Below, in pieces: positions 3,687 through 36,430 of a stretch of DNA of 64,000 nucleotides. Source of the stretch: an uncultured Pelagibacteraceae bacterium (GTDB lineage: Bacteria; Pseudomonadota; Alphaproteobacteria; Pelagibacterales; Pelagibacteraceae); the NCBI GenBank assembly GCA_902569725.1, contig CACFVG010000001.1:29554-93553 (forward strand). The letters are read 5' to 3'. The first letter of the stretch is position 1; every line of letters begins with the position of its first letter. Position numbers and translations under genes: made by a program. The notes beneath the pieces were generated by a model. It made no database searches. It saw only the letters and a list, made by a program, of their open reading frames with translations, and was not told the DNA's origin.

Positions 3687-3761
3687 GGTCCCTTCGTCTA
3701 TCGGTTAGGACACGTGGTTTTCATCCTCGAAAGAGGGGTTCGATTCCCCTAGGGACCGCCA
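3687..3761 (+). tRNA. tRNA-Glu (anticodon TTC)
   Basis: ggtccc...gggacc acceptor, loop with TTC, T arm ggggttcgattcccc, encoded CCA. Confidence 0.95.
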
Positions 3762-3767
3762 TATTTG

Positions 3768-4013
3768 ATGTATTATGTTTACCTATTAACAACCAAAAAC
3801 AAAAATAGAACAATTTCTTATGTAGGTTATACAAATAATATTAATAATAGATTAAAATTACATAATAATTCAAAAGGAGCAAAATTTACTAGAGGTCGAA
3901 AATGGAAATTAGTTTACTATAAAATGTATAATAATAGAAATTTGGCAATGAAGGCTGAATATAAGTTAAAAAAAAACTATAAGTTAAGAAATAAAATTAA
4001 AAAAGGCTTATAA
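3768..4013 (+). CDS. GIY-YIG nuclease family protein (YhbQ/UPF0213-like)
   Basis: YYVYLL...SYVGYTNNINNRLKLHNNSKGAKFTRGRKWKLVYYK; likely ATG at 3768, 3 nt inside the track ORF. Confidence 0.88.
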   Translation: MYYVYLLTTKNKNRTISYVGYTNNINNRLKLHNNSKGAKFTRGRKWKLVYYKMYNNRNLAMKAEYKLKKNYKLRNKIKKGL

Positions 4014-6144: not shown

Positions 6145-7034
6145 ACAATTATTTAATATTTCGTACAGACAGAATAGGAGATTTTCTTCTTACTGCTATA
6201 TTAATTAAATCTATTAAAAGAAATGATCCTGATTGTAGTATTTCATTAGTTTCTTCAGAGAAAAATTTTGAATATATCAATACTTTTGAAAATATTGATA
6301 AGGTTTTTTTTTTAAAAAAAGGCCTGATCAATAAATTATTATTATTTTTTTCATTAAATAAGCTTTCATATAATTCTATCATAGTTCATGATGCTAAAAA
6401 TAGATCTAAAATTATTTCTTTTTTTTTAAAATCAAAAAAAAAATATATTCCTAATAATAAAAAACTTGTTTCATATATTGATGAAATTAAATGTATTTTA
6501 AAATATCTTAATTTTAATTTTGATGATGTTGATTTAAATACATTGGGTAATAGGAATATCAATTATTCTAAATTTGATCAAAAAGATTATATTTTATTGC
6601 ATTTTGATGAAAAATGGATTTTCAGTAAATATATTAAATCCTATGTGAATATTGAGCCCACTGAAAAAGATTTAGAATTATTTTTAAATTCCTTGTCCTT
6701 AAAATCTAATAAACATATTATTGTTACAACTGGAGTTGATACTCCTGATATTTTACAAAGTATTTTTAAAAGAAATTTAAATAATAAAATTCAACTAATC
6801 AATAATACAAATTTTATTGATCTTGAATGTCTAATTAATAATTCATCTTTGTTAATATCCTGTCACGGATCTGTTTCTCATGTTGCTTCTGCTAAAAATA
6901 TTAAACAAATTGATATTGTTGACGAAGGCTATAATTATAGTAAATGGACTAAACATTTTAGAAAATACAAATCTATAAATAGAAAACCATTCAATGAATT
7001 ATCATTTGAAATATTAAATCTTAATTTTGTTTAA
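6141..7034 (+). CDS. Glycosyltransferase family 9 (heptosyltransferase-like)
   Basis: FRTDRIGDFLLTAILIKSIKRNDPDCSISLVSSEKN and C-term LLISCHGSVSHVASAKNIKQIDIVD. Confidence 0.78.
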   Translation: MNNYLIFRTDRIGDFLLTAILIKSIKRNDPDCSISLVSSEKNFEYINTFENIDKVFFLKKGLINKLLLFFSLNKLSYNSIIVHDAKNRSKIISFFLKSKKKYIPNNKKLVSYIDEIKCILKYLNFNFDDVDLNTLGNRNINYSKFDQKDYILLHFDEKWIFSKYIKSYVNIEPTEKDLELFLNSLSLKSNKHIIVTTGVDTPDILQSIFKRNLNNKIQLINNTNFIDLECLINNSSLLISCHGSVSHVASAKNIKQIDIVDEGYNYSKWTKHFRKYKSINRKPFNELSFEILNLNFV

Positions 7035-7931
7035 TGCGTTATTTTTAAATAAATTAGCTTCTTGTATATATCTTCTTACCATTTGTGTAGTTTTGTGTCC
7101 TGTCATGGCCATTATATTTCTTTCTTCAGCACCAAATTCTGCTGCTGATGTTGCAAATCCTGATCTTAAACTATGGCCACCGTATTTATTTGGATCTAAG
7201 CCTGAAAGTAATGCGTATTTTTTAATAATAAGAGCTACACTTTTATCTGATATATCAAATACTTTGCCTGATAAAATTTCTGAATAATTAAGCCAATCTT
7301 TTATTTTTGTAACGGGACAGAAAGTTTTATTATCAAAGTAGGGGATCGCTTTTATCATTCCTTCTCCAGATTGATCGGTTTTTGATCTCTTAATGAATAT
7401 TTTAACTCCCTCATTCACAAATTCTAAATCGTCATAATCAATATTTACCAGCTCAGATCTTCTAAAACCTCCTGAAAACCCAATTAGTATAAGTGCTTTA
7501 TCTCTAAATTTCTTTTTTTCAGGCTGTTGTATTTCATCTATTTTATTAATTATGCTCTTTAAATCATTAATTAATATAGGTTTTTTTGCTTTTTGATTTG
7601 TACCCCTAACTCTTTTTATACCATGCAAATTTTCCATAATTATTGGGTGTTTTGTATCCAGGTAATGCCCTTTCATCTTATGAATCACGCTTATAGACGC
7701 TATTCTTCGCTTTAAAGTGCTAAATTTTGAGGTTGATGCTAAGTGGGTTAGGTAGATAGATAGAATTTTAGGTTCTGTAGGCATAGAACTTAATCCGTTT
7801 TTTATACAGAATGTTGAAAAATCCTTAAAATCTGCCTGATAAGCTCTTAATGTATTAGCAGCTTTAGAATTCTTTAAGTTTTTTAAAGTTTCTAATTCAA
7901 GGTTTTTTAAATCAGTTACAAGTTCATTCAT
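7014..7931 (-). CDS. Tyrosine recombinase / site-specific integrase
   Basis: Catalytic set visible: GGFRRSELVN (R), K in FIKRSK, HSLRSGFATSAA (HxxR), MTGHKT, RRYIQEA (Y). Confidence 0.95.
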   Translation of the reverse strand: MNELVTDLKNLELETLKNLKNSKAANTLRAYQADFKDFSTFCIKNGLSSMPTEPKILSIYLTHLASTSKFSTLKRRIASISVIHKMKGHYLDTKHPIIMENLHGIKRVRGTNQKAKKPILINDLKSIINKIDEIQQPEKKKFRDKALILIGFSGGFRRSELVNIDYDDLEFVNEGVKIFIKRSKTDQSGEGMIKAIPYFDNKTFCPVTKIKDWLNYSEILSGKVFDISDKSVALIIKKYALLSGLDPNKYGGHSLRSGFATSAAEFGAEERNIMAMTGHKTTQMVRRYIQEANLFKNNALNKIKI

Positions 7932-7937
7932 AATATT

Positions 7938-7962
7938 TTCCGATAACCATTAATTATCGGAA
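7938..7962. repeat. Perfect inverted repeat TTCCGATAA-(CCATTAA)-TTATCGGAA just upstream of the recombinase start
   Basis: 9-bp perfect arms, 7-nt spacer, read directly from the sequence; 6 nt from the recombinase start codon. Confidence 0.9.
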
Positions 7963-8010
7963 GTTTTATATTAGATGATTTTTATTGTCAATAGTTTAAA
8001 TATATAAATT

Positions 8011-8706: not shown

Positions 8707-8982
8707 ATGGTCCTAAAAGGCACAAAATTTCAAATAAAAGTCTGGAAGTATCTTATGAAAATACCAAAAGGTAAGGTAAAAACCTACAAAGAGGTTGCTA
8801 TAGGGATAAAAATGCCTAAATCTGTGCGTGCTGTAGCTAATGCATGTGGGAAGAATCCTTATGCACCTAAAGTTCCTTGTCATAGGGTTATAAGATCCGA
8901 TGGTACTCTGGGTGGTTTTTCAGCCCCAGGGGGTATAAAAGTTAAGAAAAAACTACTAAAAAAGGAAGGTTTTTTACTCTAG
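8707..8982 (+). CDS. Methylated-DNA--protein-cysteine methyltransferase, C-terminal domain only
   Basis: GTKFQIKVWKYLMKIPKGKVKTYKEVA...NPYAPKVPCHRVIRSDGTLGGF with PCHR active site. Confidence 0.92.
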   Translation: MVLKGTKFQIKVWKYLMKIPKGKVKTYKEVAIGIKMPKSVRAVANACGKNPYAPKVPCHRVIRSDGTLGGFSAPGGIKVKKKLLKKEGFLL

Positions 8983-20529: not shown

Positions 20530-21537
20530 TTAATTTATACTATTTTTTATTTTATCAATTAAGTTGTTTTTGACAATTTTTTCACATACAGATAATGAAT
20601 TAGCAAAGCCAACAAAATCAGTTCCACCATGGCTTTTAATAACTGGGGAATCTAAACCTAATAAAATTGCACCATTGTATAATCTGGGGTCTAATTTTTT
20701 TTTAAATTTTTTCAAACTATTTGCAGAGATTAATGATCCTAATTTTCCTAATACAGAACTTTTCATAGCATCTTTTAATTCACTTGTTATAAAATTTGCT
20801 GTCCCCTCAGCAGTTTTTAAAGCTACATTACCAGTAAAACCATCTGCAACAACTACATTTACATTTCCATCCATTATATGATTTCCTTCTATGAATCCTT
20901 TAAATTCAAAATCTTCATAAATAATTTGATTCAATTTTTGATACGTTTCTTTAATTACATCATTACCTTTAAGTTCTTCAGATCCAATGTTTAATAAAGC
21001 AACTTTAGCTCGTTCTTCCGGAAATAAGGATTTAAATAATGATGAGCCCATTATAGCAAAATCAATTAAATTTTTGTCACTACATTCAATATTTGCACCT
21101 AGATCAAGTACTACACTCATACCTTTTTTACTAGGCCATAAACCCGATAGTGCGGGTTTATCTATATTTTCAATCATTTTTAAATTTAATTTTGCAATCA
21201 CTAAAAGAGCTGCAGTGTTGCCCGCTGAAATTACTATATCTGATGATTTATTTTTTACACTTTCTATAGCTAGCCACATACTTGTTTTCTTACCTCTCTT
21301 CGCAGCAGTGAAAGCACTATCTTCACCTTTGATTTTTTCATTTGTATGAATTACTTCGATAAAATTTTTGTCTATAGACTTTTTTTTTATCAAAGGATCG
21401 ATAATATTTTTATCTCCAAATAATTTATAAAAAACATTATTATCTTTTTTGTGATGAAGCTCTATACCATCAATAATTTTATAAGGTGCATTATCGCCAC
21501 CCATTGCATCGACTGCAATTGTAATGAATTTTTTCAT
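20530..21537 (-). CDS. plsX: Phosphate acyltransferase PlsX
   Basis: ITIAVDAMGGDNAP, SAGNTAALL, LGANIECSDKNLIDFAIMG, HGGTDFVGFANSL. Confidence 0.96.
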   Translation of the reverse strand: MKKFITIAVDAMGGDNAPYKIIDGIELHHKKDNNVFYKLFGDKNIIDPLIKKKSIDKNFIEVIHTNEKIKGEDSAFTAAKRGKKTSMWLAIESVKNKSSDIVISAGNTAALLVIAKLNLKMIENIDKPALSGLWPSKKGMSVVLDLGANIECSDKNLIDFAIMGSSLFKSLFPEERAKVALLNIGSEELKGNDVIKETYQKLNQIIYEDFEFKGFIEGNHIMDGNVNVVVADGFTGNVALKTAEGTANFITSELKDAMKSSVLGKLGSLISANSLKKFKKKLDPRLYNGAILLGLDSPVIKSHGGTDFVGFANSLSVCEKIVKNNLIDKIKNSIN

Positions 21538-33944: not shown

Positions 33945-34600
33945 TTTATGTTATCTAATAATTTTTTTGCAGCGTTTTGTTCAGCTTTTTTTTTTGAATC
34001 ACCTGAACCTTCATATAGCTTTGTATCTTTTAATCTTACTGATATTAAAAATTTGGGTTTATGTCTAGGTCCTGAACTTGATACAAGTTTATAAATTGGT
34101 AGAGATTTAAATTTCTTTAATGAATATTCTTGAAGCTTAGTTTTAGAATCAATTATAGTTTCTTCTGACAAGTTGATAAAATTTTTCCACATATTTAAAA
34201 TAAATTTTTCAGAAATCTCAAAACCTTTATCATAATAGATGGCACCAATTAGAGCTTCAATTGAGTCTGCAATTATTTTATTTTCTACTTTAGTGTTTGA
34301 GCTTTTGTTACCAAGTAATATAAATTTTTCCAAACCTATAAACTTGGCAACTTCTAAACATTTATTTTTATTTACTAATGAAGCTAATTTTTTATCTAGT
34401 ATTCCTTCTTTTTTATCTGGGTATAATTCTATCAGTTTTTTTGAAATTACAAATCCTAATATTCTATCACCCAAAAATTCCAATTTTTCATAATTATTAT
34501 ATGGATCATAACTTTTATGTGTTATTGATTTTTTCAGATAATTTAAATCTTTAAATTTAATGTTTATTTTTTTTTGTAAAATATTAAGCTTATCACTCAT
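33941..34600 (-). CDS. rnc: Ribonuclease III
   Basis: NYEKLEFLGDRILGFVISKKL, DSIEALIGAIYYDKGF, C-term dsRBD KKKAEQNAAKKLL. Confidence 0.95.
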   Translation of the reverse strand: MSDKLNILQKKINIKFKDLNYLKKSITHKSYDPYNNYEKLEFLGDRILGFVISKKLIELYPDKKEGILDKKLASLVNKNKCLEVAKFIGLEKFILLGNKSSNTKVENKIIADSIEALIGAIYYDKGFEISEKFILNMWKNFINLSEETIIDSKTKLQEYSLKKFKSLPIYKLVSSSGPRHKPKFLISVRLKDTKLYEGSGDSKKKAEQNAAKKLLDNIK

Positions 34601-35334: not shown

Positions 35335-35714
35335 TTATGAATCACCGAAAAAGCAATAGAATATTTTTTTTCATCAGCTAAAGATAGGGAAATTTTAATT
35401 TTTTTAACTTTAAATTTAGAATAAATAAGTTTTTTTATCTTATTATTTAATTCGTAATGTGGTTTACCGTATTTATCATTAACAATCGAAATATCGTTAA
35501 AATTTAGACCTTTTCTAAAACCTGTTCCTATGGCTTTAGATAATGATTCTTTAGCAGCAAATCTTTTTGAAAAATAATTTGTTTTATCTTTAAATTTTTG
35601 TGATTGAGTAATTTCTTTTTTTGAGAAGATTCGTAAAATAAAATTTTTATTTTTAATTAATTTTTTTACTCTTTTATTGTCAATGATATCAACACCAACT
35701 CCAATTATTTTCAT
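35331..35714 (-). CDS. acpS: Holo-[acyl-carrier-protein] synthase
   Basis: IGVGVDIIDNKRVKK, FAAKESLSKAIGTGF, SLSLADEKKYSIAF. Confidence 0.93.
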   Translation of the reverse strand: MKIIGVGVDIIDNKRVKKLIKNKNFILRIFSKKEITQSQKFKDKTNYFSKRFAAKESLSKAIGTGFRKGLNFNDISIVNDKYGKPHYELNNKIKKLIYSKFKVKKIKISLSLADEKKYSIAFSVIHK

Positions 35715-36430
35715 TATTTTTTAATAAACATATTAATTTTTTTAATAACATTTTTTAAACCAATAGATACGGATTCTCCAATAATGAAATGTCCTATATT
35801 AAACTCTTTAATCTCCTTAATTTTTGATAAAATTTTAATTGTCTTGTAATCCATGCCATGGCCAGCATGAACTTCCATTCCTAAAGAATTTGCATATTTA
35901 GCGCATTTTTTAATTTTTCTTAATTCCTTTGTATAATTTTTTTTATTTTTAACTAAATTAGATATTTTTCCTGTATGTATTTCTATACAATTTGTATTAA
36001 TTTTTTTTGAAAATATAACATCTTTTATTATTGGGTTTATAAAAAGACACGTTCTAATTTTCTTGCTATTTAACTTGCTTACAATAAATTTGATTTTTCT
36101 ATAATATTTAATTACATTTAAACCACCTTCTGTTGTTAATTCATTTCTTTTTTCAGGTACTAGACAAACATAATTAGGATTATTCCTTATTGCAATTTTT
36201 ACCATTTTATAGTTAGAAGCTATTTCTAAATTTAGCGGAATTTTTAATTTAGATAATTTCTTAAGGTCGTTATCTTTTATATGTCTTCGATCTTCACGTA
36301 AATGTATTGTAATAGAATCAGCTCCAAGAGAAATTGCATACTTTGCAAAATTAATTGGATTTGGATGTTCACCACTTCTTACATTTCTTAATGTTGCTAT
36401 ATGATCAATATTTACTCCTAAACGTTTCAT
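35714..36430 (-). CDS. pdxJ: Pyridoxine 5'-phosphate synthase
   Basis: LGVNIDHIATLRNVRSGEHPNPINFA, ADSITIHLREDRRHI, EVHAGHGMDY, FNIGHFIIGESV. Confidence 0.96.
   Translation of the reverse strand: MKRLGVNIDHIATLRNVRSGEHPNPINFAKYAISLGADSITIHLREDRRHIKDNDLKKLSKLKIPLNLEIASNYKMVKIAIRNNPNYVCLVPEKRNELTTEGGLNVIKYYRKIKFIVSKLNSKKIRTCLFINPIIKDVIFSKKINTNCIEIHTGKISNLVKNKKNYTKELRKIKKCAKYANSLGMEVHAGHGMDYKTIKILSKIKEIKEFNIGHFIIGESVSIGLKNVIKKINMFIKK

Follow-up and report, generated by a model that had tools for sequence, protein, structure and literature searches.

The 25-bp inverted repeat that precedes a tyrosine recombinase gene in a 64,000-nucleotide stretch of an uncultured Pelagibacteraceae genome (the window) very probably serves SAR11 (Pelagibacteraceae) as the dif site of a single-recombinase system for resolving chromosome dimers, one that would have replaced XerCD; we place this reading, made from sequence comparison, at a probability of roughly 0.88. 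It draws on the conservation and uniqueness of the site, its position at the replication terminus, its co-occurrence with the recombinase gene, the covariation of protein and site, and the absence of XerC/XerD. The first-pass annotation had read the repeat as a core site of the Xer/dif type belonging to the single recombinase beside it, with an autoregulatory operator as a further option, and conservation, position at the skew switch and XerCD absence all support the core-site proposal. The features concerned are as follows.

7014..7931, minus strand: single tyrosine recombinase, 305 aa, PF00589, with invariant R157/R158, K184, H253, R256, H279 and Y288.
7938..7962, no strand: proposed SAR11 dif core site, with 9-bp arms and a 7-bp asymmetric spacer; on the gene strand TTCCGATAA-TTAATGG-TTATCGGAA.
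7938..7946, no strand: gene-proximal arm TTCCGATAA, putatively recombinase-binding; arms at 99.7% column identity in 79 orthologs.
7947..7953: central region, putative crossover, CCATTAA on the plus strand and TTAATGG on the gene strand; 99.1% column identity in 79 orthologs.
7954..7962, no strand: promoter-proximal arm TTATCGGAA, putatively recombinase-binding, from column identity among orthologs.
7963..7970, minus strand: -10 region TATAAAAC, abutting the site, a motif match only; TATAAY in most orthologs.
7986..7991, minus strand: -35 hexamer TTGACA, a motif match only; TTGAC at the same place in the orthologs read.

The repeat at 7938-7962 is separated by 6 nt (7932-7937) from the recombinase ATG (7931, minus strand), and its 9-bp perfect arms, 7-nt spacer and distance from the gene were all as the first-pass annotation had described them. 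Its further statement that the window holds no second perfect copy was upheld even when up to three mismatches were allowed, and the whole draft genome contains a single copy. Read from the window alone, the repeat would be compatible with a chance palindrome in AT-rich DNA, as perfect 9-bp repeats of this spacing are equally common in shuffled sequence (six with 6-8 nt spacers in the window and 5.1 in dinucleotide shuffles; two versus 0.5 when each arm has at least three G/C). The repeat is significant because it is conserved, its geometry alone being within chance. Among 79 SAR11 orthologs with upstream sequence (74-95% protein identity), all 79 had the site beside the recombinase gene, and its 25 columns showed a mean identity of 99.5%, with 22 invariant, against 53% (-60 to -41) and 75% (-40 to -1, promoter), 66% (the 6-nt gap to the ATG) and 75% (start of the coding region) in the flanks. 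This conservation, which the first-pass annotation had expected next to orthologous recombinases, together with the co-occurrence of site and gene across the whole family, rules out chance, to which we assign almost no weight. The other GC-containing perfect inverted repeat of the window (21138-21161, ATAAACCCG-ATAGTG-CGGGTTTAT) is probably a terminator.

In the 79 orthologs the gene-strand site TTCCGATAATTAATGGTTATCGGAA is placed between a TTGACA/TATAAT-like promoter and the ATG, close to both (2-20 nt from the ATG in the orthologs read). At the corresponding position, more distant orthologs carry TTACTAAYGATAA-TTAATTG-TTATCRATAGTAA; we refer to sites with TTCCGATAA/TTATCGGAA arms as A-type and those with TTACTAAYGATAA/TTATCRATAGTAA arms as B-type. 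The inner GATAA/TTATC is common to both arm types while the outer arms differ, and spacers in other lineages are TTAATTG, TTTATGG, TTTATTG and TTAATGA. A patchy accessory site, considered because 5/61 genomes of the genus had it at three mismatches, was dropped once B-type arms were found at the orthologs.

A survey of 197 genomes of the order found the recombinase in 127 of the 144 Pelagibacteraceae members and in none of the sister family. The core GATAATTAANNGTTATC was present in 276/344 family genomes, in one copy each save a few, and in 1/53 sister-family genomes; a reversed control pattern of this core gave no matches. It occurred in 122 of the 127 gene-bearing genomes, the other five having variant spacers at the same place (TTTATGG once, TTTATTG three times, TTAATGA once), and in none of the 17 gene-less family members. 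As these 17 high-completeness drafts (one 99% complete in 20 contigs) have neither gene nor site, universality in the family is not proven. The extra core copies (G444, G557, G573, G541, G104) were considered as prophage junctions and rejected, being in or beside ordinary genes and having no symmetric arms; the sister-family copy is likewise in or beside an ordinary gene and has no symmetric arms. The SAR11 site is unique per chromosome, non-coding, palindromic and about 25-33 bp long.

The recombinase keeps the R-K-H-R-H-Y catalytic set and is the sole PF00589 protein in the draft genome, as it is in the complete genome G012. XerC/XerD/dif proper was rejected as a classification, since the protein scored at most 71.6 bits against Xer family models with cut-offs of 220-335 and is one divergent protein instead of two canonical ones. 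XerS or XerH proper was also rejected, with a score of 56 bits against the XerS model (cut-off 267) and a weak PDB match to XerH (E 6e-5). When seven complete or near-complete Pelagibacteraceae genomes were searched with the XerD model TIGR02225, the divergent recombinase alone was recovered (60-82 bits), plus an unrelated integrase in G061. A canonical xerC/xerD pair elsewhere, which the first-pass annotation held would speak against a dif role, was absent from these seven genomes; each of three sister-family genomes gave two canonical matches (244-322 bits), as did most other Alphaproteobacteria sampled. FtsK with its gamma domain was present in 4/4 genomes. In a recombinase tree made by a quick method, with weak deeper forks, the SAR11 protein stood apart from XerC/XerD (SH-aLRT 100) and joined viral and mobile-element recombinases. 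An AlphaFold model, built on a shallow alignment, had a pLDDT of 69.7 and was left out of the evidence.

The first-pass annotation had proposed looking for the site at the GC-skew switch, and it was found there, at the proposed replication terminus, in three genera. In the complete G012 chromosome (1,343,202 bp) the site lies at 617,610; the cumulative maximum of GC skew (616,051) is 1.6 kb away (two-sided chance of such closeness about 0.2%), that of AT skew (620,848) 3.2 kb and that of gene orientation (615,806) 1.8 kb; the GC-skew minimum is at 1,231,116 and dnaA at 1,198,936. These values are to be read with the caveat that SAR11 GC skew follows gene orientation: intergenic-only GC skew in G012 (75 kb) peaks 61 kb away, intergenic AT skew disagrees, and fourfold-site skew by strand showed no clear replication strand bias. 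In 20-kb stretches sampled from two other genera (G061, G213), both skew and gene orientation switch over at the site, and in the 93.5-kb contig that holds the window, cumulative skew peaks 3 kb (AT) and 10 kb (GC) from it. The gene blocks flanking the site have swapped sides between genera and the site is still at the switch: window genes at +20 to +24 kb are at -1 to -5 kb in G061, G067 and G213, and those at -14 to -22 kb are at +6 to +14 kb in G213. Inherited gene order alone therefore does not explain its position. A search for a KOPS motif gave no convincing candidate, as skewed octamers track coding bias.

Several other elements lie near the site. An IMES-2 RNA (RF02035; 8511-8651, 151 bits), one of the structured RNAs of marine bacteria, is about 550 bp from the proposed dif site and <1 kb from the proposed terminus. 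A short ORF (8707-8982) encoding an O6-methylguanine methyltransferase DNA-binding domain alone is retained next to the site in a different lineage and also in a different genus. Elsewhere in the window, an ORF with a GIY-YIG domain (3687-4013, 82 aa) immediately follows a tRNA gene.

Compared by description, the proposed system resembles XerL/dif of Legionellales (PMC9765430): a lone tyrosine recombinase, present throughout a lineage, escaped homology searches, the inverted-repeat arms are long and uninterrupted (10-12 bp in Legionellales, 9-14 bp in SAR11), and the site is at the skew maximum. The replacement of XerCD and the hijacking by a mobile element that carries a dif mimic, both seen in Legionellales, would have counterparts in SAR11. 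Unlike Legionella xerL and dif, which are >400 kb apart, the SAR11 site abuts the promoter of its gene. In this respect it is like XerS/difSL of streptococci and lactococci and XerH/difH of Helicobacter and Campylobacter, where one recombinase has its site beside the gene at the terminus; these are the precedent for a site beside its own gene (PMC5357621), and their gene and site are considered to be passed on together as a module (PMC2731167, PMC5357621). The difSL and difH arms, unlike those of SAR11, are imperfect and have other spacers (11 bp; 6-10 bp), and XerS/XerH are about 355 aa against about 305-318 aa for the SAR11 recombinase. With XerC/XerD/dif, used by most proteobacteria including the sister family, the SAR11 site shares inner ATAA...TTAT arm ends, the terminus position and FtsK gamma, whereas that system has two recombinases and a 28-bp asymmetric site.

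The origin of the module was approached through viral sequences. The exact clade-A site had no match in IMG/VR, and relaxing the spacer (TTCCGATAA-N6-8-TTATCGGAA) gave >120 contigs, of which at least 10 had a related recombinase starting 2-50 nt (in one case 211 nt) downstream of the site. Many of the recombinase-bearing contigs listed have a GC content near 0.6, and they have other spacers. The arms are conserved and the spacers free, as expected of a recombinase core site, suggesting that gene and site travel together. In an alphaproteobacterial relative, GTCCGATAA-TTCTCAC-TTATCGGAC overlaps the predicted recombinase start. Viral recombinases of GC-richer hosts (L343, L346, L350, L352, L359, L369, L370, L371, L400, L408, L409) have TTCCGATAA-N7-TTATCGGAA just upstream, and these proteins with their sites appear to constitute a wider recombinase-site family. 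In viral contigs L437-L445, with a recombinase 36-38% identical to that of SAR11, no perfect palindrome with arms of at least 8 bp was present upstream.

Within SAR11, A-type sites always accompany a short loop (46-51 residues between FCPV and GHSLR, 91 distinct proteins) and B-type sites always a long one (60 residues, 67 distinct proteins), with no exceptions among 158 proteins. Site type and loop length each change once on the recombinase tree, so this covariation is not independent replication. Both types are present in genera g1, g2, g5 and g6, indicating that gene and site were exchanged between genera as a pair. A phage or other mobile element was probably the source of the pair, which would have come in as a single module and displaced the ancestral XerC/XerD/dif; the replacement would have run from XerCD to the single recombinase.

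The same observations could be taken to mean that an integrase-encoding element, still mobile, uses the repeat for attachment and lies near the terminus by chance: the recombinases closest to the SAR11 one are viral and have the same site upstream, and the module has moved between genera. Such an element would not be expected in one copy per genome in nearly all family members and, in every genome tested, at the terminus, and neither element boundaries nor a second attachment site were found, nor phage genes within about 3 kb at 80 loci. We consider this explanation improbable and favour a resident dif site.

Sites of the SAR11 type also occur in phages. Among the IMG/VR matches listed, 57 recombinase-free contigs had an A-type site with a TTAA spacer; 51 of them encode proteins related to isolate pelagiphages, and whole-contig searches with three returned matches to Pelagibacter phages only. 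In the 43 listed contigs with TerL the site was 442-1,280 bp from it (≤710 bp in 41/43), and a B-type palindrome was located ≤90 bp from the A-type site in 12 of the 57 listed contigs and in none of the control stretches. Three isolates, with no annotated integrase, have comparable intergenic sites near the terminase end.

HTVC035P (L450), 35,830-35,887: B-type and A-type sites in tandem.
HTVC106P (L448), 35,376-35,435: B-type and A-type sites in tandem.
HTVC100P (L449), 34,320-34,377: B-type site and a degenerate A-type site.

BLAST with the HTVC106P tandem recovered no further isolates, and HTVC010P and HTVC034P had no convincing site. Dif-like palindromes near terL, often a B-type and an A-type one in tandem, were observed in IMG/VR contigs L314-L316, L329, L372, L380, L384 and L410, which have no annotated integrase. 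In holding a host-type site at a fixed place, integrase-less pelagiphages are like IMEX phages (CTXphi, VGJphi) with their attP; unlike in those phages, no integrated copy flanked by hybrid dif sites was found in the genomes searched. The host recombinase may use the phage site. The position near terL also recalls P1, whose loxP lies near pac. With lower confidence than the dif role, and at about even odds, we propose that SAR11 has a phage-derived recombinase/dif module with A and B alleles swapped between genera, and that integrase-less pelagiphages exploit it: an A-type site, sometimes with a tandem B-type, beside the terminase would let the host recombinase integrate, circularise or resolve phage genomes in hosts of either allele.

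The location of the repeat, directly after a TTGACA/TATAAT-type promoter and 2-20 nt before the ATG in the orthologs read, would also suit an operator and nothing else, with the recombinase binding a palindrome over its own promoter and no recombination taking place. An operator need not remain at the terminus switch through exchanges of the flanking genes, nor be copied into phages without the recombinase, and this account leaves the family without any dimer-resolution site; we think it has little chance of being right. Autoregulation alongside a dif role is compatible with the data: self-repression is proposed because the site directly adjoins the -10 box and the transcription start probably falls within the site. 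In the dif mechanism that we favour, one recombinase protomer would bind each arm, the two copies of the site on a chromosome dimer would synapse at the septum, and cleavage and strand exchange across the 7-bp spacer would yield monomers. FtsK, via its gamma domain, would probably deliver and activate the complex, and the recombinase would probably also repress its own gene.

No bacterial lineage of the surface ocean is more abundant than SAR11. Phages of the HTVC010P type have been described, in part, as strictly lytic. Pelagibacter ubique was stated to be without dif/Xer, which was interpreted as Xer having been given up in genome streamlining (Carnoy and Roten 2009; PMC2731167), and among the papers searched none linked SAR11 or pelagiphages to Xer/dif beyond that statement of absence. 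For Legionellales, the XerL study showed that divergent single-recombinase systems with long perfect arms can lie behind gaps of this kind (PMC9765430). A lineage-wide, phage-type recombinase-site replacement would fill the P. ubique gap, and its 25-33 bp motif would mark the replication terminus where genome skew is weak. The module also gives a testable reason for SAR11 phages carrying sites of both host alleles; if true, phages described as strictly lytic would depend on the chromosome-dimer-resolution machinery of their host.
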